From: Methylocella sp.
GTDB lineage: Bacteria > Pseudomonadota > Alphaproteobacteria > Rhizobiales > Beijerinckiaceae
Direction of reading: 5' to 3'
NCBI GenBank assembly: GCA_037200525.1
Contig: JBBCGG010000001.1
Location: 5,076,501 to 5,140,500 of the forward strand
Length of the DNA: 64,000 bases
The position numbers and the translations under genes were made by a program. Positions 1 to 44,669 of this stretch are shown here, one piece after another. The notes beneath the pieces are model-generated. The model was not told the origin of the DNA. It searched no databases and saw only the letters and a list, made by a program, of their open reading frames with translations. Position 1 is the stretch's first letter. Each line of letters opens with the position of its first letter.

Positions 1-3000
1 GAAGCTCATCCTCGCGCTCGGCCGCCATCAGCGTCAGGTCGAATTTGGCGGTCTCGCTGCCCGCCTCAACACCCTCCAACCGCAGTCCCGGCAGCCGCAA
101 CGCCTCCATCGGCGCGTTCTGCAACACCAGCATCACCTGGAACAGCGGCGCATGACTGAGATGCCGTTGCGGCTTCAGCTCCTCGACAAGCTGCTCAAAC
201 GGCACATCCTGATGCGCATAGGCCGCCAGCGCCGTGCTCCGCACCTGCATCAGCAGATCCTTGAAGCTCGGGTTGCCCGCAAGCCGCGTGCGCAGCACCA
301 GCGTGTTCACAAAGAAGCCGATCAGCCCCTCGACCTCGGGGCGCGGGCGGTTGGCGATCGACGTGCCGACGCAAATGTCGTCCTGACCCGCGTAGCGCGA
401 GAGCAGCACGTTGAACGCCGCAGCCAGCGTCATGAACAACGTCGCCTGCGCTTGCCGCGCCAGCGCGTTGAGCCCAGTCGTGGTCTGCCGCGACACCGCA
501 AAACGCAGCGTGCCGCCGTCATAGCGCTGCACCGCCGGGCGCGGCCGGTCAGTGGGCAGGGCGAGCAGCGTCGGGGCGTCCGCGAGTTGCTCCTTCCAGT
601 AGCCGAGCTGGCCTTCGAGCGCCGCCCCCTGCAGCCACTGGCGCTGCCAATGCGCGTAGTCCGCATACTGGATCAAAAGCTCCGGCAGCGGCGACGGCCG
701 CCCCTGGCTATAGGCGGCGTAAAGCGCCGCGATCTCTTTGATCAGCACCCCAATCGACCAACCATCCGACACAATATGATGCATCGTCAGCAGTGCGATG
801 TGCTCGCGGTCGCCCAACCGGATCAGCTGCGCGCGGATCAGCGGCCCATGCTCCAGATCGAACGGCGTACGGGCTTCGTCTTGCGCGCTCTGCTGCGCGC
901 GGCCCTCGGCCTCCGCCGCGGGGAGTTCGCTCAGATCCGTCAGCGGCAGCGCCAACTCCAGCGCCGCGGCGATGATTTGCGTCGGCGCGCCGTCGACCGA
1001 CGCAAAGCGCGTGCGCAGCGCCTCATGCCGCCGCACGATCTCGTTGAGCGTGCGCCTCAGCGCCTCGACGTCCAGCTTCCCGGTCAACCGCACCGCGGCC
1101 GGCATGTTGTAAAACGCGCTGCCCGCCTCAAGCTGGTTCAAAAACCACAAACGCTGCTGCGCAAACGACAGCGGCATGTCTTCGCCGCGCCCCACAGGAG
1201 CCAGCGCCGGCAACTGCAAACCTGTCCGTTCGCGCTGCTCCTGCTCGACCTGCTGCGCCAATTGCGCCACGGTCGGCGCTTCGAACAGCGCACGCAAAGG
1301 TAGCTCCACATCGAAGATGCTCTGCACTCGGGCAATCGCTTGCATCGCCAGCATCGAGTGGCCGCCATGTTCGAAGAAGTCGTCGTGGATGCCGACGCGA
1401 TCCAGCTTGAGCACCTTCGCCCAGATCTGCGCCATCGCCGTCTCAGCCGGCGTGCGCGGAGCCGCATAGCCGCCCTCGCCGCGCTGCGCGCCCGGAGCCG
1501 GCAACGCCTTGCGGTCGATCTTGCCGTTCGGCGTCAGCGGCAGCCGATCAAGCGCCACAAAATGCGACGGAACCATATAGTCGGGCAGCACGCGCAGCAG
1601 CGCGGCGCGCAGCGCGCCAGCCTCCTCCAGCCCATCCCCTTCGCCGCCATCCTCGCCGCGTTCCGTTCCCTCTCGCGCCTCGGCGGCCTCATGCGCCCGC
1701 GGCGTCACGTAAGCCACAAGCCGACGCTCGCCGGGCTCGTCCTCGCGCGCCGCCACGATCGCTTCGCCCACCCCCGGCAGAGCCGCCAGGACGGCCTCGA
1801 CCTCGCCCAGCTCGATCCGGAAACCCCGGATCTTCACCTGATCGTCCAGCCGACCCAGATAGTCCAGCTGCCCCTGCGCCGTCCATCGGGCGCGATCTCC
1901 GCTTCGATACAGCCGCTCACCGGCCGCGAACGGGTTCGGCACGAAACGCTCCGCCGTCAAATCCGGCCGATTCAGATATCCTCGGCTCAGGCCCGCTCCC
2001 CCGATATACAGCTCCCCGGACACCCCCACCGGAGTCGCCGCCATCGCCGCATCAAGCACGTACGCCCGCACGTTGTCGATCGCACGTCCCACACGCACCG
2101 CCTCCCCACCCCGGCTCCGGTAATAGGTCGAGGTCATCGTGCATTCGGTCGGCCCGTACTGGTTCACCACCTCCGCCTGGGCGCCAAGAACCTCCCGCAC
2201 CGATTCGATGACCCGTTCCGAGAGCGCCTCCCCCGACGCCAGCACCAGCCTCAGCGAACTTGCCGCCATTGCGCCCTCGCCGCCGGCGCGCGCTATGCTC
2301 GTGATCGCTTCCAGGAACGATGGCGTGATGCTGAGGATCGCCGTGATCGCATCGCGACGCAGATGCTCCAGCACCGCCTGCGCATGCTTGGCGTCGGCCC
2401 CGGTCATCACCCGAAGCCGCCCGCCCGCGCTCAGGCAGCCGAAGATATCGCGCACCGACGCATCAAAGGACAACGTCGGTATCTGCAACACCCGTTCGCC
2501 GGCTGTGACGCCGTATTGATTCACGATGAACCGAAGATAGTTCACCGCGCTCGCATGCCGCGTCATCACCCCCTTGGGGCGCCCGGTCGAGCCGGAGGTG
2601 TAGGTCACATAGGCGAGGTGCTGGCCCGACGCTTCGCTGCGCGGCGCATGCGTCGGCATCGTCGCGATCGCCCGCCCATCCGCGTCCACGCACACGCACG
2701 CTCCGACATACGCAGGCAAGGCCTCGACCAGATGCGCCTGCGTCACCAGGACACCGAGCTTTGCATCGTCGAGCATGTACGCCAGGCGCTCCGGCGGATA
2801 GCTTGGGTCCAGCGGCACATAGGCTCCGCCGGCCTTCAGAACGCCGAGCAGCCCAACCACCATCTCCAGCGAGCGTTCAACGCACAGGCCGACCAGAACC
2901 TCAGGCCCCACCCCACATTGCCGCAGGTAATGCGCAAGCTGGTTCGAGCGCGCATTCAGCTCGCCATAGGTCAGCTCGCGTCCTTCGAACGCCACCGCCA

Positions 3001-4415
3001 CCGCGTCCGGAGCCTCCGCCACCTGCGCTTCGAACAGCTCGTGCAGCGTCTGCGCCCCCTCGTAGTCCACGGCCGTCGCGTTCCACTCCGCCACGACTTG
3101 ATGGCGTTCCGCCGCGCTCAACATCGGCAGCTGCGCGATCCTCGTCTCCGGCGCTTCGACAATGCCGTCCAACAACCGCGTGAAGTGCTCCGCCATCCGC
3201 TCAATCGTCGGCGCATCGAACAGAGACGTGTTGTACGTCAACGTCGCCCGAAGCTCATCCTCGCGCTCGGCCGCCATCAGCGTCAGGTCGAATTTGGCGG
3301 TCTCGCTGCCCGCCTCAACACCCTCCAACCGCAGTCCCGGCAGCCGCAACGCCTCCATCGGCGCGTTCTGCAACACCAGCATCACCTGGAACAGCGGCGC
3401 ATGACTGAGATGCCGTTGCGGCTTCAGCTCCTCGACAAGCTGCTCAAACGGCACATCCTGATGCGCATAGGCCGCCAGCGCCGTGCTCCGCACCTGCATC
3501 AGCAGATCCTTGAAGCTCGGGTTGCCCGCAAGCCGCGTGCGCAGCACCAGCGTGTTCACAAAGAAGCCGATCAGCCCCTCGACCTCGGGGCGCGGGCGGT
3601 TGGCGATCGACGTGCCGACGCAAATGTCGTCCTGACCCGCGTAGCGCGAGAGCAGCACGTTGAACGCCGCAGCCAGCGTCATGAACAACGTCGCCTGCGC
3701 TTGCCGCGCCAGCGCGTTGAGCCCAGTCGTGGTCTGCCGCGACACCGCAAAACGCAGCGTGCCGCCGTCATAGCGCTGCACCGCCGGGCGCGGCCGGTCA
3801 GTGGGCAGGGCGAGCAGCGTCGGGGCGTCCGCGAGTTGCTCCTTCCAGTAGCCGAGCTGGCCTTCGAGCGCCGCCCCCTGCAGCCACTGGCGCTGCCAAT
3901 GCGCGTAGTCCGCATACTGGATCAAAAGCTCCGGCAGCGGCGACGGCCGCCCCTGGCTATAGGCGGCGTAAAGCGCCACGATCTCTTTGATCAGCACCCC
4001 AATCGACCAACCATCCGACACAATATGATGCATCGTCAGCAGTGCGATGTGCTCGCGGTCGCCCAACCGGATCAGCTGCGCGCGGATCAGCGGCCCATGC
4101 TCCAGATCGAACGGCGTACGGGCTTCGTCTTGCGCGCTCTGCTGCGCGCGGCCCTCGGCCTCCGCCGCGGGGAGTTCGCTCAGATCCGTCAGCGGCAGCG
4201 CCAACTCCAGCGCCGCGGCGATGATTTGCGTCGGCGCGCCGTCGACCGACGCAAAGCGCGTGCGCAGCGCCTCATGCCGCCGCACGATCTCGTTGAGCGT
4301 GCGCCTCAGCGCCTCGACGTCCAGCTTCCCGGTCAACCGCACCGCGGCCGGCATGTTGTAAAACGCGCTGCCCGCCTCAAGCTGGTTCAAAAACCACAAA
4401 CGCTGCTGCGCAAAC
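1..4415. repeat. 4.4-kb near-identical block shared by NRPS-D and NRPS-B (copy in D)
   Basis: Positions 1-4415 match 24335-28749 at a constant offset of 24334 bases, covering part of a C domain, a T domain, the DARSLSQMTK A domain and a further C domain. The match is near-perfect except for a short stretch of the carrier domain around 1310-1365. There NRPS-D has the sequence found in the other T domains, while NRPS-B differs. Confidence 0.88.
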
Positions 4416-7400
4416 GACAGCGGCATGTCTTCGCCGCGCCCCACAGGAGCCAGCGCCGGCAACTGCAAACCTGTCCGTTCGCGCTGCTCCTGCTCGACCT
4501 GCTGCGCCAATTGCGCCACGGTCGGCGCTTCGAACAGCGCACGCAAAGGCAGCTCCACATCGAAGATGCTCTGCACTCGGGCAATCGCTTGCATCGCCAG
4601 CATCGAGTGGCCGCCATGTTCGAAGAAGTCGTCGTGGATGCCGACGCGATCCAGCTTGAGCACCTCCGCCCAGATCTGCGCCATCGCCGTCTCAGCCGGC
4701 GTGCGCGGAGCCGCATAGCCTTGCGGATGCTCAACGGTACGTATCGTCGATGCGCGGATCACGCGCACAATGCGCGGGATATCGCTCAAGTCCCGCGCAA
4801 TTTCCTTGAAGATCCCGATGTCGGTCAGGACGCTCAAGTCCACAGGACGCTCACTCGATGCGAAAGACTCGTCTTCGACGGATGGCGCCGCCGCCGGGAC
4901 AAGATGTCGAGCTTGCACAGCCGCAACCGTAAAACAGGGCGCTCCTGAAGCCATTGTGCCAGGCGCCGCAATTGTTTCCAGGAAACCAAGCAAAGGGCGA
5001 TTGCGTCCGGTGGCCCGATAGGGAAACGCGACAGTTCGGCATCCTGCTTGCACAGCAAGCTCACCGAGCCTGCGCACGATTTCGTGTTCTACGCCCCGGC
5101 CAAGCACACGGCAGCTCAACAGAAATGTCCCAACCTCCAAGACTTCGTCGTTTATCTCATACGCGAGGGCGCCGACCAATCCATATGCCCCGAAGCGGTC
5201 ATGTACGCGTATCGTCCAGAAGGGTGTTCTATCGGCGGCCATGCGAATGTCGGCCGGATTGCGCGCCAAAGGATTCAAATTGAATTGGTTGGTGCGTTGC
5301 GTTAATTCAGCGACACGTTCCAGCTGGTGGTCCTGAACAACCTCCATCTCCACCTTCAATTCCAGCCTGTCCAAAAACTCCTCGAAACTCGAGGCGCTGT
5401 CGCGGACCACTTCACGCGCTTGGTTATGCCGGTATTGTTGCGTGCGTTGCAGCGAATTGCTCTTGACCGCCAAGTGATCGAATGCCCACACGTGATCCAG
5501 AAAGTGCGGGATCAACTCGGGCGCGCTCGGCAAGTGCAGAACCAAAACGCCCGGACAATGCGACTCGACTTCGGAACACTCCAATGCACTGTTGTCGACG
5601 AAAATGAAGCTATCGAGACCGAGCTGCAGTTCCTGAGCGAGCGCCTTGATATTCTCCGACTTGGGCCGCCAGTTGATACGCGACGCAATGACGTGTTCCT
5701 TTTGCAAGGGCATCTGGGGCCATGCATAGAAAACAGCCTCTACATCATCCGCATTATTCTTGCTACACAGACATAGCAGCATGCCGGCTTCTTGCTGCGC
5801 TACAATGAAGCATTGCAACGCCCGGTGTGCCTCGGTGAGGCGGATGCCAGACGGTCCAACCTCGCCGCACACTCCCTCCCACAAAGTATCGTCGCAGTCC
5901 AATACGATGACTTTGTAGGGCCTGGAGCGCAAAGCCATTACATGGCGAGCCATCAGTGTTGCTAGTCCCGCGTATTGCTCTTGGGTGTACGGGATGTGGC
6001 CAAGCCTATCCGCGTAATTGTCTTCGTAAGCGAGAACTGGATAAAGTTGTTTAAGCCGCGCCGAGGAATTCGGGTAGACCCCCACGATCGAACGCAGCTG
6101 GGCGACCAGGCGATGTTCCAAGTCCGTGATGAAGGTGCGGTATAGATCTTGTTGGTCGAGAGCGAGCGAGAGCGGGCAAAAGCAGATCACTAACGGTACA
6201 CCGGCTTGCTTTGCGAGGACGTTCGTTGCGGCGACCAATTCCTCTGCGTTGTTCTCCATAAGGCGGAACTGCTCTGTTGTGCTTATGTCTCTCCCAGCAT
6301 CGCGGATCCAATCCTCGAGCCGCAATAAGATTATGTTGACCCCATCACGATTGGTCGCGAACAGGCCTTGTGAATCGAGCAGCGTCTGGAATACTTGGTT
6401 ATAAGGAGCAAATTCGATCTCGGCGGTTAGACCGAGTTTCATTATCCAGAACAAGAGCGCGGATTCGATCGGCTCCGCTGTGAAAGTGGAGGCCACCACC
6501 AAACGCTGCTTCCTATCGCGTTTGATCGATGCTTCGGCCTGTTTCGCCAGCGCGTCAGGCAACGGCAAGCTCTGTATGGGCGTATCCGGCCTATCGAGCG
6601 CCTGTGCGAGAACTTGTGTATACGCATCCAACACAGCCGCAATCGTGGCTTGATCGAACAAATCCGTATTGTACTCGCATGTCAGGCGAAGGCCTTCATG
6701 CTTATGCTCCGCGACGAAGCGCAAATCCAGCGCGCTCGCATGGCGATTGGTTGGCAGCGCTTCCAACTTGAGCTGGTCTAGCATCAATGCGCTTCTCGGG
6801 TAATTCTGCAACAACAAGGCGACGTTGAAGATCGGATTGTGGCTGGTATCCCGTGCGGGATTGACCGCCTCGATAATCGCCTCAAACGGACAGTCCTGGT
6901 GGGAGTACGCGCCGAGCACAATCTCTCTCAAGCGCTTAAGCATGCCCGTGGCCGACTCCACGGGTTCGCATCGCATTCTCAGGGGGAGGAAATTCATAAA
7001 GCAGCCAATCAGCGGTTCGACCGCGGTCTGCATTCGTCCGGCGACAACCGTGCCGACAATGACATCCGCTGTCCTCGTCCAGCGGAAAAGGACGATCTCG
7101 AGGATCGTCAGCAACGTCATGAATAATGTCGCATGATGTTCTTCTGCCCAAATTTGAAGCCGTGCTGCATCTTGCGATGAGATCGTGATCGAGATTGCAT
7201 CACCTTGCGCGCCTTGCGCCGCCGGGCGCGGCCGGTCGGTCGGCAGGGCGAGCAGCGTCGGGGCGTCCGCGAGTTGCTCCTTCCAGTAGCCGAGCTGGCC
7301 TTCGAGCGCCGCCCCCTGCAGCCACTGGCGCTGCCAATGCGCGTAGTCCGCGTACTGGATCAAAAGCTCCGGCAGCGGCGACGGCCGCCCCTGGCTATAG

Positions 7401-10400
7401 GCGGCGTAAAGCGCCGCGATCTCTTTGATCAGCACCCCAATCGACCAACCATCCGACACAATATGATGCATCGTCAGCAGTGCGATGTGCTCGCGGTCGC
7501 CCAACCGGATCAGCTGCGCGCGGATCAGCGGCCCATGCTCCAGATCGAACGGCGTACGGGCTTCGTCTTGCGCGCTCTGCTGCGCGCGGCCCTCGGCCTC
7601 CGCCGCGGGGAGTTCGCTCAGATCCGTCAGCGGCAGCGCCAACTCCAGCGCCGCGGCGATGATTTGCGTCGGCGCGCCGTCGACCGACGCAAAGCGCGTG
7701 CGCAGCGCCTCATGCCGCCGCACGATCTCGTTGAGCGTGCGCCTCAGCGCCTCGACGTCCAGCTTCCCGGTCAACCGCACCGCGGCCGGCATGTTGTAAA
7801 ACGCGCTGCCCGCCTCAAGCTGGTTCAAAAACCACAAACGCTGCTGCGCAAACGACAGCGGCATGTCTTCGCCGCGCCCCACAGGAGCCAGCGCCGGCAA
7901 CTGCAAACCTGTCCGTTCGCGCTGCTCCTGCTCGACCCGCTGCGCCAATTGCGCCACGGTCGGCGCTTCGAACAGCACGCGAATGGGCAGCTCGACGTTG
8001 AGCTCGGAGCGGATGCGGCTGATGAGGCGGGTGGCGAGCAGGGAATGGCCGCCGCGGTCGAAGAAGCCGTCGTCGATGGAGACGCTCTCGATGTCGAGGA
8101 CTTCGGCGAAGAGGTTGGCGAGGATCTCTTCCTGCGGCGTGCGCGGCGCGCGGCCGGCAGATGAGAGGAACTCGGGCGCCGGCAGGGCGCGGCGATCGAG
8201 CTTGCCGTTCGGCGTCAGCGGCAGCGCCTCGAGGAAAACGATAGCCGCGGGAACCATATAGTCCGGCAAGGTTGCGGCCAGCGATTGGCGCAGCGCCGCC
8301 GGAGCGATCTCTCCATCGATCTCGACGCCGGCCTTGGCGACGACGTATCCGACGAGCTGCTTGTGTCCGGGTTGATCCTCGCGGGCGATGACGGCGGCCT
8401 GGGCGACTTCGGGCAGGCGGGCGAGCGCCGCCTCGATCTCGCCGGGCTCGATGCGGAAGCCGCGGATCTTGACCTGCTGGTCGGCTCGCCCCAGGAAGTC
8501 GAGGACGCCGTCGGCGCGCCACTTCGCGAGATCACCGGTTCGATACATGCGCGCGCCGGGCGGCCCGAACGGGCACGCGACGAAGCGCTCGGCGGTGAGC
8601 CCCGGCCGGTTCAGATAGCCGCGGGCGAGACCCGCGCCGGCGATGTACAGCTCGCCCGCCACGCCCACCGGAACCGGACGCAGCAAGCCGTCCAGAACAT
8701 AAACCCGCGCATTCCAGATCGGACGGCCTATCGGAACGTCGCCATCTTCGGGATCGTCCGCCCGGATCTCGTAGAGTGTGCAACCGACAACTGTCTCTGT
8801 CGGACCATACTCATTGAAGAGTCGGATCAACGGCCCACGCCGTCGCCAATCGGCGACCGTAGCGTGTTGAAGCGCCTCTCCGCCGATCACAATGGAATGG
8901 ACCGTTGCGTCCAGCGACGGCTCTGGAACCATACGGTTCAGGGCTTCGATATGTGCAGGCGTCAGCTTAAGCAGACTGTAATTTCCGCATTGAAGTAAGA
9001 TTTCGGACAGATGTGCGAGTTCCTGTCCCGGACGAAGCAGGAAAGAACTCTTGCCGGACGCGAGCGGGAGTAGAAGGCTGGTTATCGTGGCATCGAATGC
9101 TAGAGGGGTTGCGACCGCTGCGCCCACTCCGAGATCCAAGGGATATGTCTCTATCGCCCAACGCGCGTAATTGAAGAGGCCCCCCTGTCCGACGACGACG
9201 CCCTTGGGTGTTCCGGTTGATCCTGAGGTGTAGATGACATAGGCGGGATTTTGCGGCGCAAGGGGTTTGGTGCGGCCGGCGTCGGTTGGGTTGGTTTGCG
9301 GGGCGTTTTCCAAGGCCGCGACGATCTCGGGGTCATCGAGCAGGATGTGGGGATTATCATCGCCGAGCAGCTGGGCGGGGATATCGCTGATGGCGATGAC
9401 GGCGCTTGGCCGTGCGTCGGCGAGCATGAAGCGCAACCGCTCGGCGGGGTAGTCGGGATCGAGCGGCAGATAGGCGGCGCCGGCCTTGAGGATGCCAAGC
9501 AGCGCGATGACCATCTCGAGCGAGCGCGGCAGGCAAAGCGCGACGATGGCCTCGGGCCCGATGCCGAGCCCGATCAGGTGATGGGCGAGCTGATTGGCTT
9601 TGGCGTTGAGTGCGGCGTAGGAGAGCTCGGCGTCTTCGAAGACGAGGGCGATGGCGTCGGGCGTGCGCTCGGCCTGCGCCTCGAACAGCTGCGGCAGCGT
9701 GGCTTCGGGCAGCGGATGGGCGGTGTCATTCCAATCGACGAGGATCTGGCGGCGCTCATCGGGGGTGAGCAGGTCGATGTCGCCGATGCGCTGCGCCGGA
9801 TCGGCGGCGATCGCCTCCAAAACGCGGGTGAGGCGCGACGCCAGGATCTCGATGCTGGCGCGGTCATAGAGGTCCGTTGCGTATTCGATGGCGCCGGCGA
9901 GGCCGGCCGGCTGACCCTTTGCGTCGGCTGTCTCAGTCAGGCTCAGCAGGAGGTCGAACTTGGCCGTGCCAGTACCGACAGGCTCTTGGCGCAGCTCGAG
10001 GCCCGGCAGGTCGAGGGTGGCGGCCTCGGTGTTCTGCAGGACGAGCATGACCTGGACCAGCGGGGCATGGTTCTGGGCGCGGGCGGGGTTGAGGATCTCA
10101 ACGAGGCGCTCGAACGGCAGGTCCTGGTTGGCGTAGGCGGAAAGGCTCTGCTCGCGCACGCGGGCGAGCAGGTCCTGGACGCTGGGATCGCCAGAGAGGT
10201 TTGTGCGCAGGACCAGGGTGTTGACGAAGAAGCCGACGAGGTCGTTGAGGGCGCTGTCGGTGCGGCTGGCGATGGGCGAGCCGATGGCGATGTCGTCGCC
10301 GGCTCCGAGCTTGCCGAGCAGGATGGCGAGGCCGGCCTGCAGCAGCATGAACAGGCTGGTCCCGGAGCTGCGGACGAGCGCGCGGAGCTTGGCGTGCAGC

Positions 10401-31900: not shown

Positions 31901-34900
31901 CGGATCGGCGGCGATCGCCTCCAAAACGCGGGTGAGGCGCGACGCCAGGATCTCGATGCTGGCGCGGTCATAGAGGTCGGTTGCGTATTCGAGCGCGCCG
32001 GCGAGCCCGGCCGGCCGACCCTTTGCGTCGGCGGTCTCGGTCAGGCTCAGCGTGAGGTCGAACTTGGTGGCGCCGGCGCCGACAGGCTCTTGGCGCAGCT
32101 CGAGGCCCGGCAGGTCGAGGCTTGCGGCCTCGGTGTTCTGCAGGACGAGCATGACCTGGAACAGCGGGGCATGGTTCTGGGCGCGGGCCGGGTTGAGGAT
32201 CTCGACGAGGCGCTCGAACGGCAGGTCCTGGTTAGCGTAGGCGGCGAGGCTCTGCTCGCGCACGCGGGCGAGCAGGTCCTGGACGCTGGGATCGCCGGAA
32301 AGGTTTGTGCGCAGGACCAGGGTGTTGACGAAGAAGCCGACGAGGTCGTCGAGGGCGCTGTCGGTGCGGCCGGCGATGGGCGAGCCGATGGCGATGTCGT
32401 CGCCGGCTCCGAGCTTGCCGAGCAGGATGGCGAAGCCGGCCTGCAGCAGCATGAACAGGCTGGTCCCGGAGCTGCGGGCGAGCGCGCGGAGCTTATGGTG
32501 CAACGCCGGGGCGATCTGGATCGGCAGCTGGTCGCCGCGATAGGAGGCGACGGCGGGGCGCGGCCGGTCGGTGGGCAGGGCGATGCATTCGGGCAGGCCG
32601 GCGAGGGCCTGGCGCCAATAGGCGCCCTGCTGGGCGATCAGGCTGCCCGGCCGGCTCTCGTCGCCGAGCAGCTCGCGCTGCCACAGCGCATAGTCGGCGT
32701 ATTGCACGGGCAAGGCCGCAAAGCCCGGCGCGTGACCCTTCAGGCGCGCCGCATAGGCCCGCGCCAGATCGCGGGCGAGCGGGGCCAGCGAGGCGCCATC
32801 GGCGGCGATGTGATGCACCAAGACGAGCAGGACATGGCTGTCGTGGGCGAGGCGGAACAGCGTGGCGCGGATCGGCGTCTCGCGATCGAGGCGGAAGGCG
32901 TAGGCGGCGGCCTGCCGCAGCAGATCCGGCAGCGTCGCCTCGTCGACGTCCTGTCTATCGAGCGTCAGGCATGCGCGCGGATCGTCCGTTGCCAGCACGA
33001 GCTGCTGGGGCGCATCGTCGATCTCGGGGAAGAGCGTGCGCAGGCTCTCGTGGCGGACGACGAGATCCCTGAGCGCCGCCTCGAGCGCCGCGCCGTCGAG
33101 CGCGCCCTCGAGGCGCAGCGGCATCGGGATGTTGTAGGTGGCGCTCGGCCCCTCCAGCCGGTAGAGGAACCACAGCCGCTGCTGCGCCGGCGACAGCGGC
33201 AGCTGCTCCGGCCGCGGCAGCCGCCGCAGCGGCGTCCGCGCGCTGGCGCCATCCGTCAGCCGCAGGGCGAGCTGAGCGACGGTTGGGGCCTCGAACAGGG
33301 CGCGGACGGGCAGCTCGACATTGAGCTCGGAGCGGATGCGGCTGATGAGGCGGGTGGCGAGCAGGGAATGGCCGCCGCGGTCGAAGAAGCTGTCGTCGAT
33401 GGAGACGCTCTCGAGGCCGAGGATCTCGGCGAAGAGGTTGGCGAGGATCTCCTCTTGCGGCGTGCGCGGCGCGCGGCCGGCAGATGAGAGGAACTCGGGC
33501 GCCGGCAGGGCGCGGCGATCGAGCTTGCCGTTGGGGGTCAGCGGCAGCGCCTCGAGGAAAACGATGGCGGCGGGAACCATATAGTCCGGCAAGGTTGCGG
33601 CCAGCGCCTGGCGCAGCACCGCCGGATCGATCGCCATATCGATCTCTCGGCCGGCCTTGGCGACGACATAGCCGACGAGCTGCTTGTGTCCGGGTTGATC
33701 CTCGCGGGCGATGACGGCGGCCTGGGCGACTTCGGGCAGGCGGGCGAGCGCCGCCTCGATCTCGCCGGGCTCGATGCGGAAGCCGCGGATCTTGACCTGC
33801 TGGTCGGCGCGGCCGAGGAAGTCGAGCATGCCGTCGGGACGCCACTTGGCGAGATCGCCGGTGCGATACATGCGCGTTCCGGGCGGCCCGAACGGGCACG
33901 CGACGAAGCGCTCGGCGGTGAGCCCCGGCCGGTTCAGATAGCCGCGGGCGAGACCCGCGCCGGCGATGTACAGCTCGCCCGCCACGCCCACCGGAACCGG
34001 ACGCAGCAACCCGTCCAGAACATACACCCGCGTGTTCCAGATCGGACGGCCAAGCGGAGGGGCGCCGTCTAGTCCGCCATCGAGAACGGTCGTGGTGGAC
34101 CAGATCGTTGTCTCGGTCGGCCCGTAGAGGTTGATAATATCGCGGCCTGTCAGGGCAAGGAGGCGTTCCGCCTGCTCAGCGGAAAGCGCCTCGCCGCCGA
34201 CGAGCGGATGCAGGCCGCGCAAAATATCGGGCTGGCTCTCGATCAGTCCTTGCCATCCGCTTGGCGTGGCCTGGAGGGTGTCGACTCCATGTTCGCTGAT
34301 TAATTGGGCGACGAGCGCGGGATCGCGCAACGCCCTGCCGCCCGCGACGACGACCTGGGCGCCCTGGATGAGAGGCAGATAGAGTTCGAGCCCTGCGATA
34401 TCGAAACCGATTGTGGTGGTGGCGAGTAGCGAGTGGCCGGCTCCCAGCGGGACGTTCGGCCGCAGGGCATGCAGGAAGCTCGTTAGATTGGCATGCGCGA
34501 CGACGACGCCCTTGGGCGTCCCGGTTGATCCTGAGGTGTAGATGACATAGGCGGGATTCTCGGGCGCGAGGGGTTTGGTTCGCTCGGCGTCGGTTGGGTT
34601 GGTTTGCGGCGCCTGCTGCAGGGCCGCGGCGATGTCGGGGTCATCGAGCAGGATGCGGGGGATGGCGGCGTCGCTCAGGTGGGCGGCGACGTCCCCCATG
34701 CTGACGAGGCAGAGCGGCTGTGCGTCTTCGAGCATGAAGCGCAAGCGCTCGGCTGGGTAGTCGGGATCGAGCGGCAGATAGGCGGCGCCGGCCTTGAGGA
34801 TGCCAAGCAGCGCAATGACCATCTCGAGCGAGCGCGGCATGCAAAGCGCGACGATCGCCTCGGGCCCGATGCCGAGCCCGATCAGATGATGGGCGAGCTG

Positions 34901-37900
34901 ATTGGCTTTGGCGTTAAGTGCGGCGTAGGAGAGCTCGGCGTCTTCGAAGACGAGGGCGATGGCGTCGGGCGTGCGCTCGGCCTGCGCCTCGAACAGCTGC
35001 GGCAGCGTGGCTTCGGGCAGCGGATGGGCGGTGTCGTTCCAATCGACGAGGATCTGGCGGCGCTCATCGGCGGTGAGCAGATCGATGGCGCCGATGCGCT
35101 GCGCCGGATCGGCGGCGATCGCCTCCAAAACGCGGGTGAGGCGCGACGCCAGGATCTCGATGCTGGCGCGGTCATAGAGGTCGGTTGCGTATTCGAGCGC
35201 GCCGGCGAGCCCGGCCGGCCGACCCTTTGCGTCGGCGGTCTCGGTCAGGCTCAGCGTGAGGTCGAACTTGGTGGCGCCGGCGCCGACAGGCTCTTGGCGC
35301 AGCTCGAGGCCCGGCAGGTCGAGGCTTGCGGCCTCGGTGTTCTGCAGGACGAGCATGACCTGGAACAGCGGGGCATGGTTCTGGGCGCGGGCCGGGTTGA
35401 GGATCTCGACGAGGCGCTCGAACGGCAGGTCCTGGTTAGCGTAGGCGGCGAGGCTCTGCTCGCGCACGCGGGCGAGCAGGTCCTGGACGCTGGGATCGCC
35501 GGAAAGGTTTGTGCGCAGGACCAGGGTGTTGACGAAGAAGCCGACGAGGTCGTCGAGGGCGCTGTCGGTGCGGCCGGCGATGGGCGAGCCGATGGCGATG
35601 TCGTCGCCGGCTCCGAGCTTGCCGAGCAGGATGGCGAAGCCGGCCTGCAGCAGCATGAACAGGCTGGTCCCGGAGCTGCGGGCGAGCGCGCGGAGCTTAT
35701 GGTGCAACGCCGGGGCGATCTGGATCGGCAGCTGGTCGCCGCGATAGGAGGCGACGGCGGGGCGCGGCCGGTCGGTGGGCAGGGCGATGCATTCGGGCAG
35801 GCCGGCGAGGGCCTGGCGCCAATAGGCGCCCTGCTGGGCGATCAGGCTGCCCGGCCGGCTCTCGTCGCCGAGCAGCTCGCGCTGCCACAGCGCATAGTCG
35901 GCGTATTGCACGGGCAAGGCCGCAAAGCCCGGCGCGTGACCCTTCAGGCGCGCCGCATAGGCCCGCGCCAGATCGCGGGCGAGCGGGGCCAGCGAGGCGC
36001 CATCGGCGGCGATGTGATGCACCAAGACGAGCAGGACATGGCTGTCGTGGGCGAGGCGGAACAGCGTGGCGCGGATCGGCGTCTCGCGATCGAGGCGGAA
36101 GGCGTAGGCGGCGGCCTGCCGCAGCAGATCCGGCAGCGTCGCCTCGTCGACGTCCTGTCTATCGAGCGTCAGGCATGCGCGCGGATCGTCCGTTGCCAGC
36201 ACGAGCTGCTGGGGCGCATCGTCGATCTCGGGGAAGAGCGTGCGCAGGCTCTCGTGGCGGACGACGAGATCCCTGAGCGCCGCCTCGAGCGCCGCGCCGT
36301 CGAGCGCGCCCTCGAGGCGCAGCGGCATCGGGATGTTGTAGGTGGCGCTCGGCCCCTCCAGCCGGTAGAGGAACCACAGCCGCTGCTGCGCCGGCGACAG
36401 CGGCAGCTGCTCCGGCCGCGGCAGCCGCCGCAGCGGCGTCCGCGCGCTGGCGCCATCCGTCAGCCGCAGGGCGAGCTGAGCGACGGTTGGGGCCTCGAAC
36501 AGGGCGCGGACGGGCAGCTCGACATTGAGCTCGGAGCGGATGCGGCTGATGAGGCGGGTGGCGAGCAGGGAATGGCCGCCGCGGTCGAAGAAGCTGTCGT
36601 CGATGGAGACGCTCTCGAGGCCGAGGATCTCGGCGAAGAGGTTGGCGAGGATCTCCTCTTGCGGCGTGCGCGGCGCGCGGCCGGCAGATGAGAGGAACTC
36701 GGGCGCCGGCAGGGCGCGGCGATCGAGCTTGCCGTTGGGGGTCAGCGGCAGCGCCTCGAGGAAAACGATGGCGGCGGGAACCATATAGTCCGGCAAGGTT
36801 GCGGCCAGCGCCTGGCGCAGCACCGCCGGATCGATCGCCATATCGATCTCTCGGCCGGCCTTGGCGACGACATAGCCGACGAGCTGCTTGTGTCCGGGTT
36901 GATCCTCGCGGGCGATGACGGCGGCCTGGGCGACTTCGGGCAGGCGGGCGAGCGCCGCCTCGATCTCGCCGGGCTCGATGCGGAAGCCGCGGATCTTGAC
37001 CTGCTGGTCGGCGCGGCCGAGGAAGTCGAGCATGCCGTCGGGACGCCACTTGGCGAGATCGCCGGTGCGATACATGCGCGTTCCGGGCGGCCCGAACGGG
37101 CACGCGACGAAGCGCTCGGCGGTGAGCCCCGGCCGGTTCAGATAGCCGCGGGCGAGACCCGCGCCGGCGATGTACAGCTCGCCCGCCACGCCCACCGGAA
37201 CCGGACGCAGCAACCCGTCCAGAACATACACCCGCGTGTTCCAGATCGGACGGCCAAGCGGAGGGGCGCCGTCTAGTCCGCCATCGAGAACGGTCGTGGT
37301 GGACCAGATCGTTGTCTCGGTCGGCCCGTAGAGGTTGATAATATCGCGGCCTGTCAGGGCAAGGAGGCGTTCCGCCTGCTCAGCGGAAAGCGCCTCGCCG
37401 CCGACGAGCGGATGCAGGCCGCGCAAAATATCGGGCTGGCTCTCGATCAGTCCTTGCCATCCGCTTGGCGTGGCCTGGAGGGTGTCGACTCCATGTTCGC
37501 TGATTAATTGGGCGACGAGCGCGGGATCGCGCAACGCCCTGCCGCCCGCGACGACGACCTGGGCGCCCTGGATGAGAGGCAGATAGAGTTCGAGCCCTGC
37601 GATATCGAAACCGATTGTGGTGGTGGCGAGTAGCGAGTGGCCGGCTCCCAGCGGGACGTTCGGCCGCAGGGCATGCAGGAAGCTCGTTAGATTGGCATGC
37701 GCGACGACGACGCCCTTGGGCGTCCCGGTTGATCCTGAGGTGTAGATGACATAGGCGGGATTCTCGGGCGCGAGGGGTTTGGTTCGCTCGGCGTCGGTTG
37801 GGTTGGTTTGCGGCGCCTGCTGCAGGGCCGCGGCGATGTCGGGGTCATCGAGCAGGATGCGGGGGATGGCGGCGTCGCTCAGGTGGGCGGCGACGTCCCC

Positions 37901-40900
37901 CATGCTGACGAGGCAGAGCGGCTGTGCGTCTTCGAGCATGAAGCGCAAGCGCTCGGCTGGGTAGTCGGGATCGAGCGGCAGATAGGCGGCGCCGGCCTTG
38001 AGGATGCCAAGCAGCGCAATGACCATCTCGAGCGAGCGCGGCATGCAAAGCGCGACGATCGCCTCGGGCCCGATGCCGAGCCCGATCAGATGATGGGCGA
38101 GCTGATTGGCTTTGGCGTTAAGTGCGGCGTAGGAGAGCTCGGCGTCTTCGAAGACGAGGGCGATGGCGTCGGGCGTGCGCTCGGCCTGCGCCTCGAACAG
38201 CTGCGGCAGCGTGGCTTCGGGCAGCGGATGGGCGGTGTCGTTCCAATCGACGAGGATCTGGCGGCGCTCATCGGCGGTGAGCAGATCGATGGCGCCGATG
38301 CGCTGCGCCGGATCGGCGGCGATCGCCTCCAAAACGCGGGTGAGGCGCGACGCCAGGATCTCGATGCTGGCGCGGTCATAGAGGTCGGTTGCGTATTCGA
38401 GCGCGCCGGCGAGCCCGGCCGGCCGACCCTTTGCGTCGGCGGTCTCGGTCAGGCTCAGCGTGAGGTCGAACTTGGTGGCGCCGGCGCCGACAGGCTCTTG
38501 GCGCAGCTCGAGGCCCGGCAGGTCGAGGCTTGCGGCCTCGGTGTTCTGCAGGACGAGCATGACCTGGAACAGCGGGGCATGGTTCTGGGCGCGGGCCGGG
38601 TTGAGGATCTCGACGAGGCGCTCGAACGGCAGGTCCTGGTTAGCGTAGGCGGCGAGGCTCTGCTCGCGCACGCGGGCGAGCAGGTCCTGGACGCTGGGAT
38701 CGCCGGAAAGGTTTGTGCGCAGGACCAGGGTGTTGACGAAGAAGCCGACGAGGTCGTCGAGGGCGCTGTCGGTGCGGCCGGCGATGGGCGAGCCGATGGC
38801 GATGTCGTCGCCGGCTCCGAGCTTGCCGAGCAGGATGGCGAAGCCGGCCTGCAGCAGCATGAACAGGCTGGTCCCGGAGCTGCGGGCGAGCGCGCGGAGC
38901 TTATGGTGCAACGCCGGGGCGATCTGGATCGGCAGCTGGTCGCCGCGATAGGAGGCGACGGCGGGGCGCGGCCGGTCGGTGGGCAGGGCGATGCATTCGG
39001 GCAGGCCGGCGAGGGCCTGGCGCCAATAGGCGCCCTGCTGGGCGATCAGGCTGCCCGGCCGGCTCTCGTCGCCGAGCAGCTCGCGCTGCCACAGCGCATA
39101 GTCGGCGTATTGCACGGGCAAGGCCGCAAAGCCCGGCGCGTGACCCTTCAGGCGCGCCGCATAGGCCCGCGCCAGATCGCGGGCGAGCGGGGCCAGCGAG
39201 GCGCCATCGGCGGCGATGTGATGCACCAAGACGAGCAGGACATGGCTGTCGTGGGCGAGGCGGAACAGCGTGGCGCGGATCGGCGTCTCGCGATCGAGGC
39301 GGAAGGCGTAGGCGGCGGCCTGCCGCAGCAGATCCGGCAGCGTCGCCTCGTCGACGTCCTGTCTATCGAGCGTCAGGCATGCGCGCGGATCGTCCGTTGC
39401 CAGCACGAGCTGCTGGGGCGCATCGTCGATCTCGGGGAAGAGCGTGCGCAGGCTCTCGTGGCGGACGACGAGATCCCTGAGCGCCGCCTCGAGCGCCGCG
39501 CCGTCGAGCGCGCCCTCGAGGCGCAGCGGCATCGGGATGTTGTAGGTGGCGCTCGGCCCCTCCAGCCGGTAGAGGAACCACAGCCGCTGCTGCGCCGGCG
39601 ACAGCGGCAGCTGCTCCGGCCGCGGCAGCCGCCGCAGCGGCGTCCGCGCGCTGGCGCCATCCGTCAGCCGCAGGGCGAGCTGAGCGACGGTTGGGGCCTC
39701 GAACAGGGCGCGGACGGGCAGCTCGACGTTGAGCTCGGAGCGGATGCGGCTGATGAGGCGGGTGGCGAGCAGGGAATGGCCGCCGCGGTCGAAGAAGCTG
39801 TCGTCGATGGAGACGCTCTGGAGGCCAAGCACTTCGGCGAACAGAGCGGCGAGGATCTCCTCCTGCGGTGTGCGCGGCGCGCGGCTGGCGGACGAGGCGA
39901 ACGCCGGCGCCGGCAGGGCGCGGCGATCGAGCTTGCCGTTGGGGGTCAGCGGCAGCGCCTCGAGGAAAACGATGGCGGCGGGAACCATATAGTCCGGCAA
40001 CGTTGCGGCCAGCGATTGGCGCAGCGCTTGCGCCCGCGGCCGCGCATGGCTGCGCGCGAGACTGTGCAACTGCTCCAGAGCGGGCAACGCTGCGAACGCT
40101 TGTGCGGCGTCCATCCAGTCGACGAGGCACGCGATTTCGTTCACACCTATTTCATGCAGCTGCTGGACTATCGGCAGGCAGCTTTGCGGCGTGCCGATCA
40201 GCGCGGCTGTGCGTGAATAGCGTTCAAAGGCGATTTCCACCACCTGCTCAAGTTGTTCCGCGCTGGGCTCGTCGAGTTCCAGGCTCTTCAGAAGCGGGCG
40301 CATAAGGCCGATATGCGCCCGCATGTAATTCATGAATGGCTTGCGAGCGCGTGCAAGCGTGTCCTCCAACCCATCTCCGAGGAAGGTATGTATCATCAGG
40401 GTAACGCGGCCATTATCCGGGTCGTGTCCCGCCTCGGCGCGCGCTCGGCGGTACCGCGCGATCTGCTCTTCCAGCTTGCCAAGCGTCTGGCCCAACAGGT
40501 GAGTCAGGACGTTCAGGCCAAGTCGGCCGGCATGTTCGAAAGTCTCAAGGCTGCCTGCCGCAGTGAGCCATATGGGCAACTTTTCTTGTAACGGCCGCGG
40601 ATAAACATGCACCGAGACAGGCTCGCCGGCACCGTCGATCCGCGTAATCGACTCGCCCCTCCAGAGCCGCTGTAGGACGTCGATGGCTTGATGGGTGAGT
40701 TGCCTGCGATCGGGGAAGCGCTCTGGATAGAAGACGAAGTCGCGTGGATGCCAGCCGGAAGCGATCGCTGCGCCAGCCCGTCCGCCTGACAAATTGTCGA
40801 CCACAGCCAATTCTTCGGCTACACGCAACGGATCATGAAGCGGGAGCACGACGCTGCCGGCGCGCAACTGTATATTTTCCGTAATGCCCGAGAGCGCCGC

Positions 40901-43834
40901 ATTCAGCACCGATGGGTTTGGATAAAGGCTTCCGACTTCATGGAAATGCCGTTCCGGTGTCCAGATCGCCTCGAAACCGTGCGCATCGCCAAAGCGTGCC
41001 GAATCCAGATAGAATGCGTACTTGTTGTGCTGCGCGTGAGTATCTGCGCCGAAATAGAACAGGCTAAAGCTCGTTTGTGCGGACGCCTGCGCGCTCCCGG
41101 CGCCGCTGGCCTCGCGAGGCACTACATAGCCGACGAGCTGCTTGTGTCCGGGTTGATCCTCGCGGGCGATGACGGCGGCCTGGGCGACTTCGGGCAGGCG
41201 GGCGAGCGCCGCCTCGATCTCGCCGGGCTCGATGCGGAAGCCGCGGATCTTGACCTGCTGGTCGGCGCGGCCGAGGAAGTCGAGCATGCCGTCGGGACGC
41301 CACTTGGCGAGATCGCCGGTGCGATACATGCGCGTTCCGGGCGGCCCGAACGGGCACGCGACGAAGCGCTCGGCGGTGAGCCCCGGCCGGTTCAGATAGC
41401 CGCGGGCGAGACCCGCGCCGGCGATGTACAGCTCGCCCGCCACGCCCACCGGAACCGGACGCAGCAACCCGTCCAGAACATACACCCGCGTGTTCCAGAT
41501 CGGACGGCCAAGCGGAGGGGCGCCGTCTAGTCCGCCATCGAGAACGGTCGTGGTGGACCAGATCGTTGTCTCGGTCGGCCCGTAGAGGTTGATAATATCG
41601 CGGCCTGTCAGGGCAAGGAGGCGTTCCGCCTGCTCAGCGGAAAGCGCCTCGCCGCCGACGAGCGGATGCAGGCCGCGCAAAATATCGGGCTGGCTCTCGA
41701 TCAGTCCTTGCCATCCGCTTGGCGTGGCCTGGAGGGTGTCGACTCCATGTTCGCTGATTAATTGGGCGACGAGCGCGGGATCGCGCAACGCCCTGCCGCC
41801 CGCGACGACGACCTGGGCGCCCTGGATGAGAGGCAGATAGAGTTCGAGCCCTGCGATATCGAAACCGATTGTGGTGGTGGCGAGTAGCGAGTGGCCGGCT
41901 CCCAGCGGGACGTTCGGCCGCAGGGCATGCAGGAAGCTCGTTAGATTGGCATGCGCGACGACGACGCCCTTGGGCGTCCCGGTTGATCCTGAGGTGTAGA
42001 TGACATAGGCGGGATTCTCGGGCGCGAGGGGTTTGGTTCGCTCGGCGTCGGTTGGGTTGGTTTGCGGCGCCTGCTGCAGGGCCGCGGCGATGTCGGGGTC
42101 ATCGAGCAGGATGCGGGGGATGGCGGCGTCGCTCAGGTGGGCGGCGACGTCCCCCATGCTGACGAGGCAGAGCGGCTGTGCGTCTTCGAGCATGAAGCGC
42201 AAGCGCTCGGCTGGGTAGTCGGGATCGAGCGGCAGATAGGCGGCGCCGGCCTTGAGGATGCCAAGCAGCGCAATGACCATCTCGAGCGAGCGCGGCATGC
42301 AAAGCGCGACGATCGCCTCGGGCCCGATGCCGAGCCCGATCAGATGATGGGCGAGCTGATTGGCTTTGGCGTTAAGTGCGGCGTAGGAGAGCTCGGCGTC
42401 TTCGAAGACGAGGGCGATGGCGTCGGGCGTGCGCTCGGCCTGCGCCTCGAACAGCTGCGGCAGCGTGGCTTCGGGCAGCGGATGGGCGGTGTCGTTCCAA
42501 TCGACGAGGATCTGGCGGCGCTCATCGGCGGTGAGCAGATCGATGGCGCCGATGCGCTGCGCCGGATCGGCGGCGATCGCCTCCAAAACGCGAGTCAAGC
42601 TGGCGGCTAACCGGTTAAGATGGGCAGGATCGTAAAGAGCGGGATTGGCATTAAGATTGACCCGCAAGCTGCTCTCATCACTATAAATTACGATCGAAAG
42701 GTCATCCACAGGGCCGTTGGAGAACATCTCGCCCGACACTGGAACTTTGTCGAAACGGAGCGCGCTATCGAAGGCCATGAAGATGATATGCGGACCGAAC
42801 GATCTGGTTCGGCTCCCCAGAACGTTCCGCACGAGATCTTCGCCTCGCAGACGCTGATGTCGCAGAACCCCGCGCATCTCACGTGAAATGTCCCGCGTAA
42901 GATGCGGCAGGGTCGATTCCGCCGTCACAGTCAAGCGAACGGGTAGAGCGTTGGCCATTGTCGCCGGGATCCCACGCGTCGCCTTGGTGCGTCCCGCGAT
43001 CGGCACGCTCAGGACCAGATCGGAAATCCCGCTCAGCCGGTGCAGCCACGCCGCTACAATCGAGATCATGATCGACGGCAAGGATTGGCCGGATTGCTTG
43101 GCGAAGGCCGTGAAAACCGCATATTGCAGCGCTGAAACTTCGAAGGCGCGCTGCACGAAGGTATTGGAGGGCGCCGCCGCCCGGCCGGCGAGACAAAGCG
43201 GTTCCGACCAGCCGGCGAGACGCTCCCGCCAGTAACGTTGATCTGCGGCTTGCTGCGGCGATCCTGTATAACACCGATCTTCCTCAAGCACCGTGTGCAA
43301 GCTGCCGAACAGGTTCGGTCCCGGGACTTCTCCAGCAACAAGCGCCGCATAAACCGCGGCTAAGCGCGATGAGATTGCCGTGACGCTGAGCCCATCCATA
43401 ACGATGTGATGATATCGATGATACCAGAAGAACCGGTCCGGCGCGGTCTTGATCAGGGCAAAGCCGAACGGCGTGTCCTCGAGCAGATTGACCGGCTGCG
43501 CCATCTCGGCTCGCATCCACGCCTTGGCCGCCGCCTGAGGATCCACTTGGTCACTGTAATCCAGAGTGACCATTGACCAGACGGCGCCGGCGTCAAGGCG
43601 CTGCCGGGGTCCGTCCTCGGTGTCGATAAAGCGCAGACGCAGCGCGTCGGCCTCAGCAACGACATGCCGAAGCGCCGTCTCGAAAAGTGCTGGATCCACC
43701 GCGTCATGGATGTCGAGATATCCGCCGATGTTGTAGCCGGGGAAGTCCGGATCAAGCGCCTGGGCAAACCAGATCTTGGATTGCGCGTCGGTAAGGGCAT
43801 CATGCCCCCCGTGCCCATCAGCCGCGTCGAGCAT
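28964..43834 (-). CDS. NRPS-A: four glycine-coded modules, two with embedded luciferase-like monooxygenases
   Basis: A protein of 4956 residues, the first synthetase of the operon. The ATG at 43834 is preceded by AAAGGACGAAG, a good ribosome binding site. Order: EntF-type C (1-420, HHIVMDG); A (435-910) with monooxygenase (921-1265), T (1320-1395); C (1415-1845), A (1850-2370), T (2390-2462); C (2485-2915), A (2920-3440), T (3458-3530); C (3553-3983), A (3988-4455) with monooxygenase (4475-4818), T (4873-4945); acidic tail REKIEI. All four A domains read DILQLGLIWK, an established glycine code. The second to fourth C domains carry HHIAADG. Modules repeat at 1068 residues (3204 bp) with essentially no divergence. 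There is no loading module, so the first C domain must accept an acyl or aryl group from a carrier encoded elsewhere. Confidence 0.97.
29379..30412 (-). other. Luciferase-like monooxygenase domain embedded in the module-4 glycine A domain of NRPS-A
   Basis: Second copy of the insert at 40041-41074, at an offset of 10662 bases. No difference was seen in the translated domain. It modifies the module whose product is passed to NRPS-B. The two unmodified glycine modules in between have a short ordinary linker ([16 protein letters not shown]) at the same place. Confidence 0.9.
40041..41074 (-). other. Luciferase-like monooxygenase domain embedded in the module-1 glycine A domain of NRPS-A
   Basis: About 345 residues inserted between the A-domain core (KQLVGYVV) and its DYMVP subdomain. 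The sequence has the NRPS/PKS-associated flavin monooxygenase pattern: FSLFYFGAD at the first strand, [39 protein letters not shown] and ASGWHPRDF. The myxothiazol and melithiazol synthetases MtaG and MelG have a comparable monooxygenase in a glycine A domain, where oxidation of the glycine alpha carbon leads to chain cleavage to an amide. Here the domain is in the first module, so alpha- or N-oxidation of an internal glycine is the inference. Confidence 0.9.
42590..43820 (-). other. EntF-type starter condensation domain of NRPS-A
   Basis: This C domain differs from all others in the locus. It begins [12 protein letters not shown] and has [14 protein letters not shown] at the active site, [14 protein letters not shown], and [12 protein letters not shown] near its end. 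The same signposts occur in EntF-like synthetases, whose first C domain joins an aryl acid on a separate carrier protein to the first amino acid. Sharp divergence from the repeated sequence starts at about 42591. An aryl or acyl starter is therefore inferred; the loading enzymes are not in this window. Confidence 0.75.
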
Positions 43835-43950
43835 CTTCGTCCTTTAAAGGTTAGGATGGATATTGATCCGGCCGTAGGGGCGATGTGCGGGCACATCTTT
43901 GAGACCAAGTGCGTGGCAAGTTATTCTCAACATATCGTGCCGGGGGACAC

Positions 43951-44290
43951 TCAAAGCCCATTCGCCTCCAGATGCCGGAGCACCTTCTCGGTCGTCTGGT
44001 CGGTCGCCGGCCGCGGCCGAGATCGACGCCCGCTTAACTGCGCATCGTCAGGGGTGCAGCGCGCCTCTTCGACCCTCGGGGCCGTTGCTGCGGAAAATAA
44101 ATGCATAGCATTCGTCTCAATTCCCACGCAGGCCCAGCCATTATCTTGCTTCGGATAGACCGGCCCGATAGGCTTACACAGATTAACTGCGGAAGGACCC
44201 GCTCCATCTTCGTCAGAAACGTCGTCGGCGACACCGTCTTGCCGTCGAGAATTGCATCTGCTTCATCATTCAGCCTCGCGCCATCATCTC
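43951..44290 (-). pseudogene. Fossil of an IS5-family transposase between mbtH and NRPS-A
   Basis: Read on the minus strand in two frames, this stretch gives pieces in the right order for the N-terminal part of an IS5-type transposase: TTFLTKMERVLP, then PVYPKQDNGWACVG, then MLCIYFPQQR, then RPATDQTTEKVLRHLEANG. At least one frameshift separates them and no full reading frame remains. It fills most of the 616-base gap between mbtH and NRPS-A. No terminal repeats were recognised. Confidence 0.62.
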
Positions 44291-44450
44291 AAGCGACATC
44301 TGTCAGCCGCCAGCGTCCAAGTGATTCAGACAGTCCCCTTTTTCTGAGACGGAGCCTGCGTCTGGCCAGACGGTCTGTTGAACCGAACTGTTGCGATATG
44401 CCGGACCCCCGCGTGATCCCGCAAACGGCTCATTTGTCGGTGCAGGCGTT

Positions 44451-44669
44451 CTAGGGGGAAGCTTTCTGGTCCGCCATGCGCTGTCGCAGACTCAGTGGGC
44501 GCATGTCCGTCCAAACGCTTGTAATATAATTAAGGCATTCGTCTTTATCGCCGGCCTTGCCGACGTCGCTCCAACCTGCCGGCACGGCTTGCTCGTGCGG
44601 CCAAATGGAATATTGCTCCTCGTGATTTACCAGTACGCGGAAAAGCTCATTATTGCCGTCGGCGTTCAT
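44451..44669 (-). CDS. mbtH: MbtH-like NRPS accessory protein
   Basis: A protein of 72 residues, the usual length for MbtH-like proteins. It carries the family signature: [10 protein letters not shown], then [25 protein letters not shown] and SLR. These small proteins bind the N-terminal part of A domains and are often needed for their folding or activity, so it most likely serves the A domains of the downstream synthetases. It is the first gene of the minus-strand NRPS unit, separated from NRPS-A by 616 bases that contain a transposase fossil. A weak AAGG lies upstream of the ATG. Confidence 0.95.

Follow-up and report, generated by a model that had tools for sequence, protein, structure and literature searches.

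A thirteen-module nonribosomal peptide synthetase in Methylocella with glycine monooxygenase domains early in the line and an internal FkbH module

We analysed a 64,000-nucleotide stretch of DNA from Methylocella sp. (the window; bases 5076501-5140500 of one 5,244,354-base contig, which is the entire genome) that carries a large nonribosomal peptide synthetase (NRPS). Four NRPS genes, nrpsA to nrpsD, lie on the minus strand together with an mbtH gene (Table 1). All four are open frames and consecutive genes are joined by ATGA overlaps. The synthetase spans 46,725 bases in total, and nrpsD extends past the left edge of the window. A preliminary description of the window had placed four overlapping NRPS genes and mbtH here, with twelve modules inside the window and at least one more beyond it. 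The overlaps, the domain matches and the codes bear this out far beyond chance, and the sequence left of position 1 contains module 13 and a thioesterase. The core of the cluster was thus confirmed, but that description did not include module 13 and the thioesterase, nor the TauD-family dioxygenase, pyridoxal phosphate (PLP) enzyme and exporter that lie outside the window, nor the repetition of the modules. Our reading, to which we give a probability of about 0.72, is that the cluster encodes a colinear 13-module line making an acylated Gly/Ser-rich peptide or depsipeptide with an internal glycerate.

Modules were defined by domain mapping with seeds taken from the locus itself, and the codes of the adenylation (A) domains were read and then repeated by alignment. 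We found 13 modules, with 13 condensation (C) domain matches to PF00668 in the locus, one per module, 13 carrier (T) motifs GG[HD]S and the thioesterase motif GYSLG. The modules are of the C-A-T type with a carrier serine motif and the line has a terminal thioesterase, while in module 11 FkbH stands instead of the A domain. Twelve modules have their A or FkbH loading domain wholly inside the window. This includes eleven A domains, as had been counted before, and the twelfth lies outside: the C domain of module 13 starts in the window (at about 1189) and its A, T and thioesterase domains lie left of position 1. The codes run in the order Gly-Gly-Gly-Gly-X-Ser-Ser-Ser-Ser-Asn-like-[FkbH]-X-Gly. 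Modules 1-4 and 13 carry DILQLGLIWK (Gly), 5 and 12 DARSLSQMTK (X), 6 and 7 DVWHISLVDK (Ser), 8 and 9 DVWHFSLVDK (Ser) and 10 DATKVGEVGK (Asn-like). The earlier list of four Gly, X, four Ser, Asn-like, FkbH and X agrees with these codes. The substrate names follow the usual assignments of such codes and PMC12283262. The colinear order of residues, proposed in the preliminary description, is backed by the TubC-type docking domains predicted on nrpsB and nrpsC; the C-terminal tails of nrpsA and nrpsB both end in -EI.

The first domain of the line, C1, has an intact HHxxxDG motif. In the PDB it comes closest to 7c1k (E 3.1e-96) and variants of that entry; CdaPS1, ObiF1 and EntF rank next. The 7c1 entries are the starter condensation domain (Cs) of the rhizomide synthetase RzmA (PMC10587159, PMC7804268), in agreement with the acyl start that had been proposed. 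In RzmA, smaller residues at position 148 shift the acyl chain from C2 up to C8 or C10 (PMC7804268). Since a Val in C1 aligns with R148, the residue setting acyl length, this suggests that the chain joined by Cs may be of medium length; the likeness to RzmA refers to the starter domain, the only part compared. NCBIfam stretches to EntF/MxcG (residues 14-907 or 14-910) raised the possibility of a dihydroxybenzoyl starter, which we discarded, as C1 resembles the starter domain of RzmA much more than it does EntF (326.2 versus 161 bits). The genome has no match to the penicillin-amidase family, of which PvdQ is a member, while 4 of 14 control genomes do, so the acyl chain may stay on the product.

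In modules 1 and 4 the Gly A domain has a luciferase-like monooxygenase (LLM or MOx) domain nested within it. The two domains match TIGR04020 in two stretches (460 bits each, 907 bits together, against a cut-off of 244.45), and the closest PDB sequence is PuwE (5.3e-98), also a luciferase-like monooxygenase. The nesting is that of the myxothiazol and melithiazol type, for which it is described that a MOx in a Gly A domain hydroxylates the alpha carbon, after which the N-C-alpha bond is broken and the carrier keeps glyoxylate until release (PMC11342130). That account describes cleavage for myxothiazol and melithiazol, considers it for corallorazine-like clusters and allows "oxidized or smaller" products for MOx-bearing clusters (PMC11342130), and in one survey every MOX module was in a Gly domain (PMC12283262). 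For the palmerolide LLM, in a polyketide synthase (PKS) module, addition of an alpha-hydroxyl without cutting has been proposed (PMC8739492). In the cases described for Gly A domains the MOx domains sit in last modules and yield a terminal amide, whereas here two identical copies occupy modules 1 and 4 of 13. The domain itself is already known; its placement early in the line is the unusual point. The preliminary description had predicted two oxygenated glycines. The two LLM domains in Gly modules stand, but oxygenated glycine is only one possible outcome since cleavage has been described (PMC11342130), and stable hydroxyglycine and chain cutting are not distinguishable from sequence.

We found that the TIGR04020 cut-off was passed in none of the 14 other genomes of the genus (1 of 15, our own only). 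In a sample of the order, 16 of 397 genomes (our own included) had an LLM match at E 1e-60 or better. The LLM in the other 15 lies in frames of 372-1872 aa (12 of 1325-1872 aa and three of 372-432 aa), compared with 4959 aa here, and A-domain parts were seen on both sides of it at 11 of the 15 loci. Eleven loci of the order (L093-L102 and L104) have the LLM inside the A domain in proteins of about 1490-1870 aa.

The same code as that of residue X is found in the first A domain of an NRPS of Mycetohabitans rhizoxinica HKI 454 (WP_013428370.1), which is 54.7% identical to the X A domain; that synthetase differs in having six modules in another order, and a product assigned to it was not found. 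The code also occurs in strain B47, and close codes in M. endofungorum and Agrobacterium. None of the papers searched contains DARSLSQMT. The best single-stretch PDB row for the X A domain was 4d4g, APNA A1 (345.4 bits), with LgrA and 8xjz ranking higher as sums over two A domains. APNA A1 activates Arg and Tyr, but the match is not good evidence for X. Since Arg at position 239 is also present in the aminoadipate code DPRHLALLAK (PMC12283262), X could be an acidic residue, although this too is not good evidence.

The N-terminal motif of dual condensation/epimerisation (C/E) domains is HH[IL]xxxxGD, and C7 carries HHLMNQEGD, which fits it. The best matches of C7 were McyB, PvdL and the bacitracin, tyrocidine and surfactin synthetase chains. 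No separate E domain was found by PF00668, which gave three matches in nrpsB for its three modules and as many matches as modules in the whole locus. Given the dual motif in C7, and since nrpsB lacks an E domain of its own, the simplest reading is that position 6 is D-Ser, consistent with the one D-Ser foreseen in the preliminary description. C7 is 57-60% identical to, and groups with, the dual-type C domain of a Methylocystis bryophila plasmid NRPS (WP_281926551.1, locus L124), which also resembles our line in its Ser code, its annotated cyclic peptide exporter and its highly repeated modules. It differs in that the three codes read (of seven A domains seen) are all of the Ser type and a penicillin acylase lies nearby, and no FkbH or LLM match was found in the stretch. 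On this plasmid (NZ_AP027150.1) the NRPS gene is 33.8 kb long, and 90% of the 23.4 kb seen is in exact repeats.

The single methyltransferase of the line lies within the Ser A domain of module 8, as nested N-methyltransferases are described to lie inside A domains (PMC8949500), and this agrees with the one N-methyl-Ser that had been predicted. Beyond nrpsD, left of the window and on the same strand, lie a PLP enzyme, a TauD-family dioxygenase (PF02668, 134.5 bits) and a cyclic-peptide export ABC transporter (TIGR01194, 487.1 bits, cut-off 286.2). Over 285 aa, the TauD enzyme shares 44% identity with the TauD of an Eleftheria terrae cluster having two DLTKVGHVGK (Asp/Asn) codes, and a second Eleftheria TauD domain, embedded in an NRPS, was matched at 167 bits. 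Because of this resemblance, the TauD enzyme likely hydroxylates the Asx residue. The PLP enzyme is above the NCBIfam cut-off for threo-3-hydroxy-L-aspartate ammonia-lyase (483.6 against 452). Our guess is that this 3-hydroxyaspartate-type enzyme removes free hydroxy-Asp or acts as a racemase.

In module 11 the FkbH unit takes the place of the A domain, giving the order C-FkbH-T. It matches TIGR01686 at 274.8 bits, above the cut-off of 146.65, and contains DxDxT, the motif of HAD proteins; being the only such unit, it agrees with the one glycerate-type unit proposed before. FkbH modules are described in the vioprolide, cystomanamide and corramycin lines (PMC8949500, PMC10099666). The likeness to vioprolide and corramycin lies in a C-FkbH-T module loading glycerate, which is ester-joined in vioprolide (PMC8949500, PMC10099666). 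In those accounts the FkbH module is second, after FAAL-ACP, whereas here it is module 11 of 13 and follows the Asn-like residue. The preceding domain, C11, has an N-lobe whose identity to those of C6, C12 and C13 rounds to 100%, and a C-lobe about 41% identical to theirs. Judged by these identities, C11 is a mosaic domain.

FkbH was matched at 1e-40 in 55 of 397 genomes sampled from the family (our own included), and among the matches listed all but our own lie in frames of at most 1059 aa, compared with 4694 aa here. With C-FkbH-T as the query, 22 of 398 genomes of the phylum (our own included) had a match at 1e-100. The match spanned both C and FkbH in 8 of the 397 other genomes, the best being 48% identical. 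Of five such loci, three (G813, G893 and G819) have C-FkbH-T followed by C-A-T and another C-type domain, one (G785) has only C-FkbH-T with distant A-domain pieces, and one (G993) is broken by short contigs. A pattern scan of named genomes, which was not exhaustive, gave at least 55 loci, of which 12 (L037-L048) match FkbH strongly. In one of these 12, from Moorena (WTKN01000342.1, L037), a C domain was found directly before FkbH. There C-FkbH-T stands within a line, before a further C-type domain (43% identity in the best segment, query residues 2-667). The Moorena locus differs in its two flanking DLYNLSLIWK (Cys-code) modules with nitroreductase-type domains and in its thioesterase end, and it had no LLM match.

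The domain order, codes, overlapping genes and nested domains are read from the DNA; the chemistry that we infer from them would run as follows. Cs would couple an acyl-CoA, probably of medium chain length, to Gly1. In modules 1 and 4 the LLM domain would hydroxylate the alpha carbon of the glycine on its own carrier, and enough N-acyl-alpha-hydroxyglycine would have to survive for the chain to continue. Modules 5-10 would add X, Ser (turned D by C7), Ser, N-methyl-Ser, Ser and an Asn-like residue, the last probably beta-hydroxylated by the TauD enzyme. FkbH would then load a glyceryl unit to which C11 would join the chain by an ester, X and Gly would be added, and the thioesterase would release the chain, either linear or closed through one of its many hydroxyls, for export by the ABC transporter. 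Leaving aside the two X residues, and with Asn unhydroxylated, the predicted linear mass is 969.352 with a C4 acyl chain, 997.384 with C6, 1025.415 with C8 and 1053.446 with C10; a cyclic product would be lighter by 18.011. Each of these parts has a described counterpart, and the position of the Gly monooxygenases is the unusual point. We regard the locus as an intact-looking orphan line of a known kind, with known parts unusually placed.

Several observations weigh against this proposal. In the accounts cited above, MOx domains in Gly A domains are linked mainly to chain cleavage and not to stable hydroxyglycine. The C-lobe of C11 is 42% identical to the FkbH-associated C domain of Moorena and 41% to ordinary C domains of our own line, and this marginal difference gives ester formation no independent support. 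C5 (window 27453-28772) and C6 (24204-25523) have HHIVSDD in place of HHxxxDG, with the same codons in both; the change was perhaps spread by recombination. Because of the long perfect repeats described below, the number of modules depends on the assembly.

The MOx accounts lead directly to an alternative in which the line cuts itself: LLM hydroxylation would be followed by a break of the N-C-alpha bond, the amide would leave, and the glyoxylyl would stay on the carrier while synthesis continues. The products would be a small acyl amide, a short Gly amide and glyoxylyl-X-Ser-Ser-NMeSer-Ser-Asn-glycerate-X-Gly, the last with a predicted mass of 695.225 plus the two X residues. This is the reaction described for the Gly A-domain MOx of myxothiazol and melithiazol (PMC11342130, also PMC12283262), and both LLM copies are in Gly modules. 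However, after two cuts neither the starter C domain nor the four Gly modules would serve any purpose in the final peptide, and no account of a C domain taking a glyoxylyl donor was found in the literature consulted; we think such cutting unlikely. That the cluster is a cut-and-restart NRPS in this sense, with modules 1 and 4 breaking the chain and a glyoxylyl starter left behind to give a glyoxylyl-capped depsipeptide among several products, we likewise consider unlikely. A siderophore, in which a hydroxylated Asx, serines and hydroxy acids bind iron, is improbable. In its favour, a TonB siderophore receptor is annotated in the Eleftheria cluster with the similar TauD, a Janthinobacterium cluster with siderophore genes also has an annotated cyclic peptide exporter, and a TauD-type hydroxylase, the mark looked for in beta-hydroxy-Asp siderophores, is present in our cluster. 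Yet all seven matches to TonB receptors in the genome are more than 0.4 Mb away from the cluster, also when the contig is taken as a circle, and this distance speaks against a siderophore. In addition, no hydroxamate or catechol module was recognised, and the single Asx module is Asn-like, not Asp-like.

The repetition of the modules raises another alternative, namely that the repeated modules are partly an artefact of assembly or polishing and the true number of Gly modules differs. Perfect periodicity at 3204 bp extends over 9.3 kb, and exact repeats of 500 bp or more make up 65% (0.649) of the synthetase coding DNA. We compared this with 12 stretches which were search hits, not a random sample (11 plasmid loci, some of them partial genes, and one 20-kb stretch of our own genome). 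Since three of the 12 exceed our locus (0.905, 0.826 and 0.778; the other nine 0 to 0.237), the repetition is not exceptional, and the idea that it is remarkable in itself was rejected. Against an artefact, the genome is one contig and these three stretches, although themselves assemblies, have similar perfect repeats in NRPS genes; we consider this alternative unlikely. Finally, the cluster might be decayed and silent. Transposase-like genes and an integrase fragment were seen by eye on the flanks, an IS5 family transposase was named, and the active-site motif of C5 and C6 has a change of G to D. However, the four NRPS genes are open and overlapping, and the Gly of HHxxxDG is also missing from the Moorena C domain and from three C domains of the dual type (C7, L121 and L124); we hold decay to be very unlikely.

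The preliminary description had called the product probably undescribed. We found the same module order in none of the rows and loci examined across the genus, the order, the family (FkbH), the phylum (C-FkbH-T), the contig pattern scan, the plasmids and the papers, which agrees with that claim within these searches, but MIBiG lay outside them. For the plasmids, 20 of 69 records were examined, and three of the 69, outside those 20, had their best place at 95-99% identity. The cluster alone is ordinary, since orphan NRPS clusters are common. What the locus offers is a clean test of whether a Gly-nested LLM always cuts or leaves a stable hydroxyglycine when it is inside a line. C11, with its shared N-lobe and private C-lobe, bears on where natural module recombination occurs, and the internal glycerate module is a further feature of interest. 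If the cut-and-restart reading were true, one line would yield several products, including a glyoxylyl-capped depsipeptide.

Table 1. Features of the synthetase locus, in window positions
Feature	Position	Strand	Remarks
nrpsA	28964..43834	-	4956 aa; Cs-A(Gly)-LLM-T, C-A(Gly)-T, C-A(Gly)-T, C-A(Gly)-LLM-T (modules 1-4)
nrpsB	18999..28967	-	3322 aa; docking, C-A(X)-T, C-A(Ser)-T, Cdual-A(Ser)-T (modules 5-7)
nrpsC	11131..19002	-	2623 aa; docking, C-A(Ser)-MT-T, C-A(Ser)-T (modules 8-9; MT, methyltransferase)
nrpsD	1..11134, on to -2890	-	4674 aa; C-A(Asn-like)-T, C-FkbH-T, C-A(X)-T, C-A(Gly)-T-TE (modules 10-13; TE, thioesterase)
mbtH	44451..44669	-	PF03621, 77.5 bits; opposite end of cluster from thioesterase
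TubC_N docking domain of nrpsB	28773..28967	-	
TubC_N docking domain of nrpsC	18805..19002	-	
Starter condensation domain Cs (C1)	42515..43804	-	Val at position of RzmA R148
LLM/MOx domain in Gly A domain, module 1	40067..41068	-	
LLM/MOx domain, module 4	29405..30406	-	identical to that of module 1
Perfect 3204-bp-period repeat over Gly modules 2-4	30462..39727	-	6062-base exact match at shift 3204
A domain, module 5	26088..27305	-	code DARSLSQMTK
C7, probable dual condensation/epimerisation domain	20898..22322	-	
Methyltransferase nested in Ser A domain, module 8	14782..16032	-	probable N-methylation
Asn-like A domain, module 10	8390..9622	-	
C11, mosaic C domain preceding FkbH	6560..7876	-	
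FkbH domain, module 11	4967..5914	-	predicted glyceryl loading; N-terminal part to about 6559
A domain, module 12	1754..2971	-	protein identical to module 5 A domain

Elsewhere in the genome, frames of the phosphopantetheinyl transferase (PPTase) family of 226 aa and 147 aa are present. Other condensation-domain matches lie at 2674941-2679508 (a close pair, in frames of 2752 aa and 991 aa), with a partial match at 3345364-3345738. No genome match was found to PF02461 or PF02332, which were tried as methanotroph markers; the control genomes were equally without a match, so this result is uninformative.

On the right flank, an xpt-like gene and cinA are adjacent, as they are in three members of the genus that were compared. 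The best plasmid matches to this flank came from Methylocella tundrae (86.4%, in two pieces), and an IS5 family transposase is named among the matches. By eye, from the translations, a transposase-like two-frame element is present in three nearly identical copies (window 47767-48536, 53845-54614 and 58499-59268), and frames resembling fragments of a phage-type integrase lie right of the cluster (window 46251-46779). Because of these transposase-like genes and the integrase fragment around it, the cluster looks acquired. To the left of the cluster, three frames (237, 164 and 233 aa) are present twice with identical starts, in opposite orientation and about 11 kb apart (genome positions 5051613-5053559 and 5064819-5066765).

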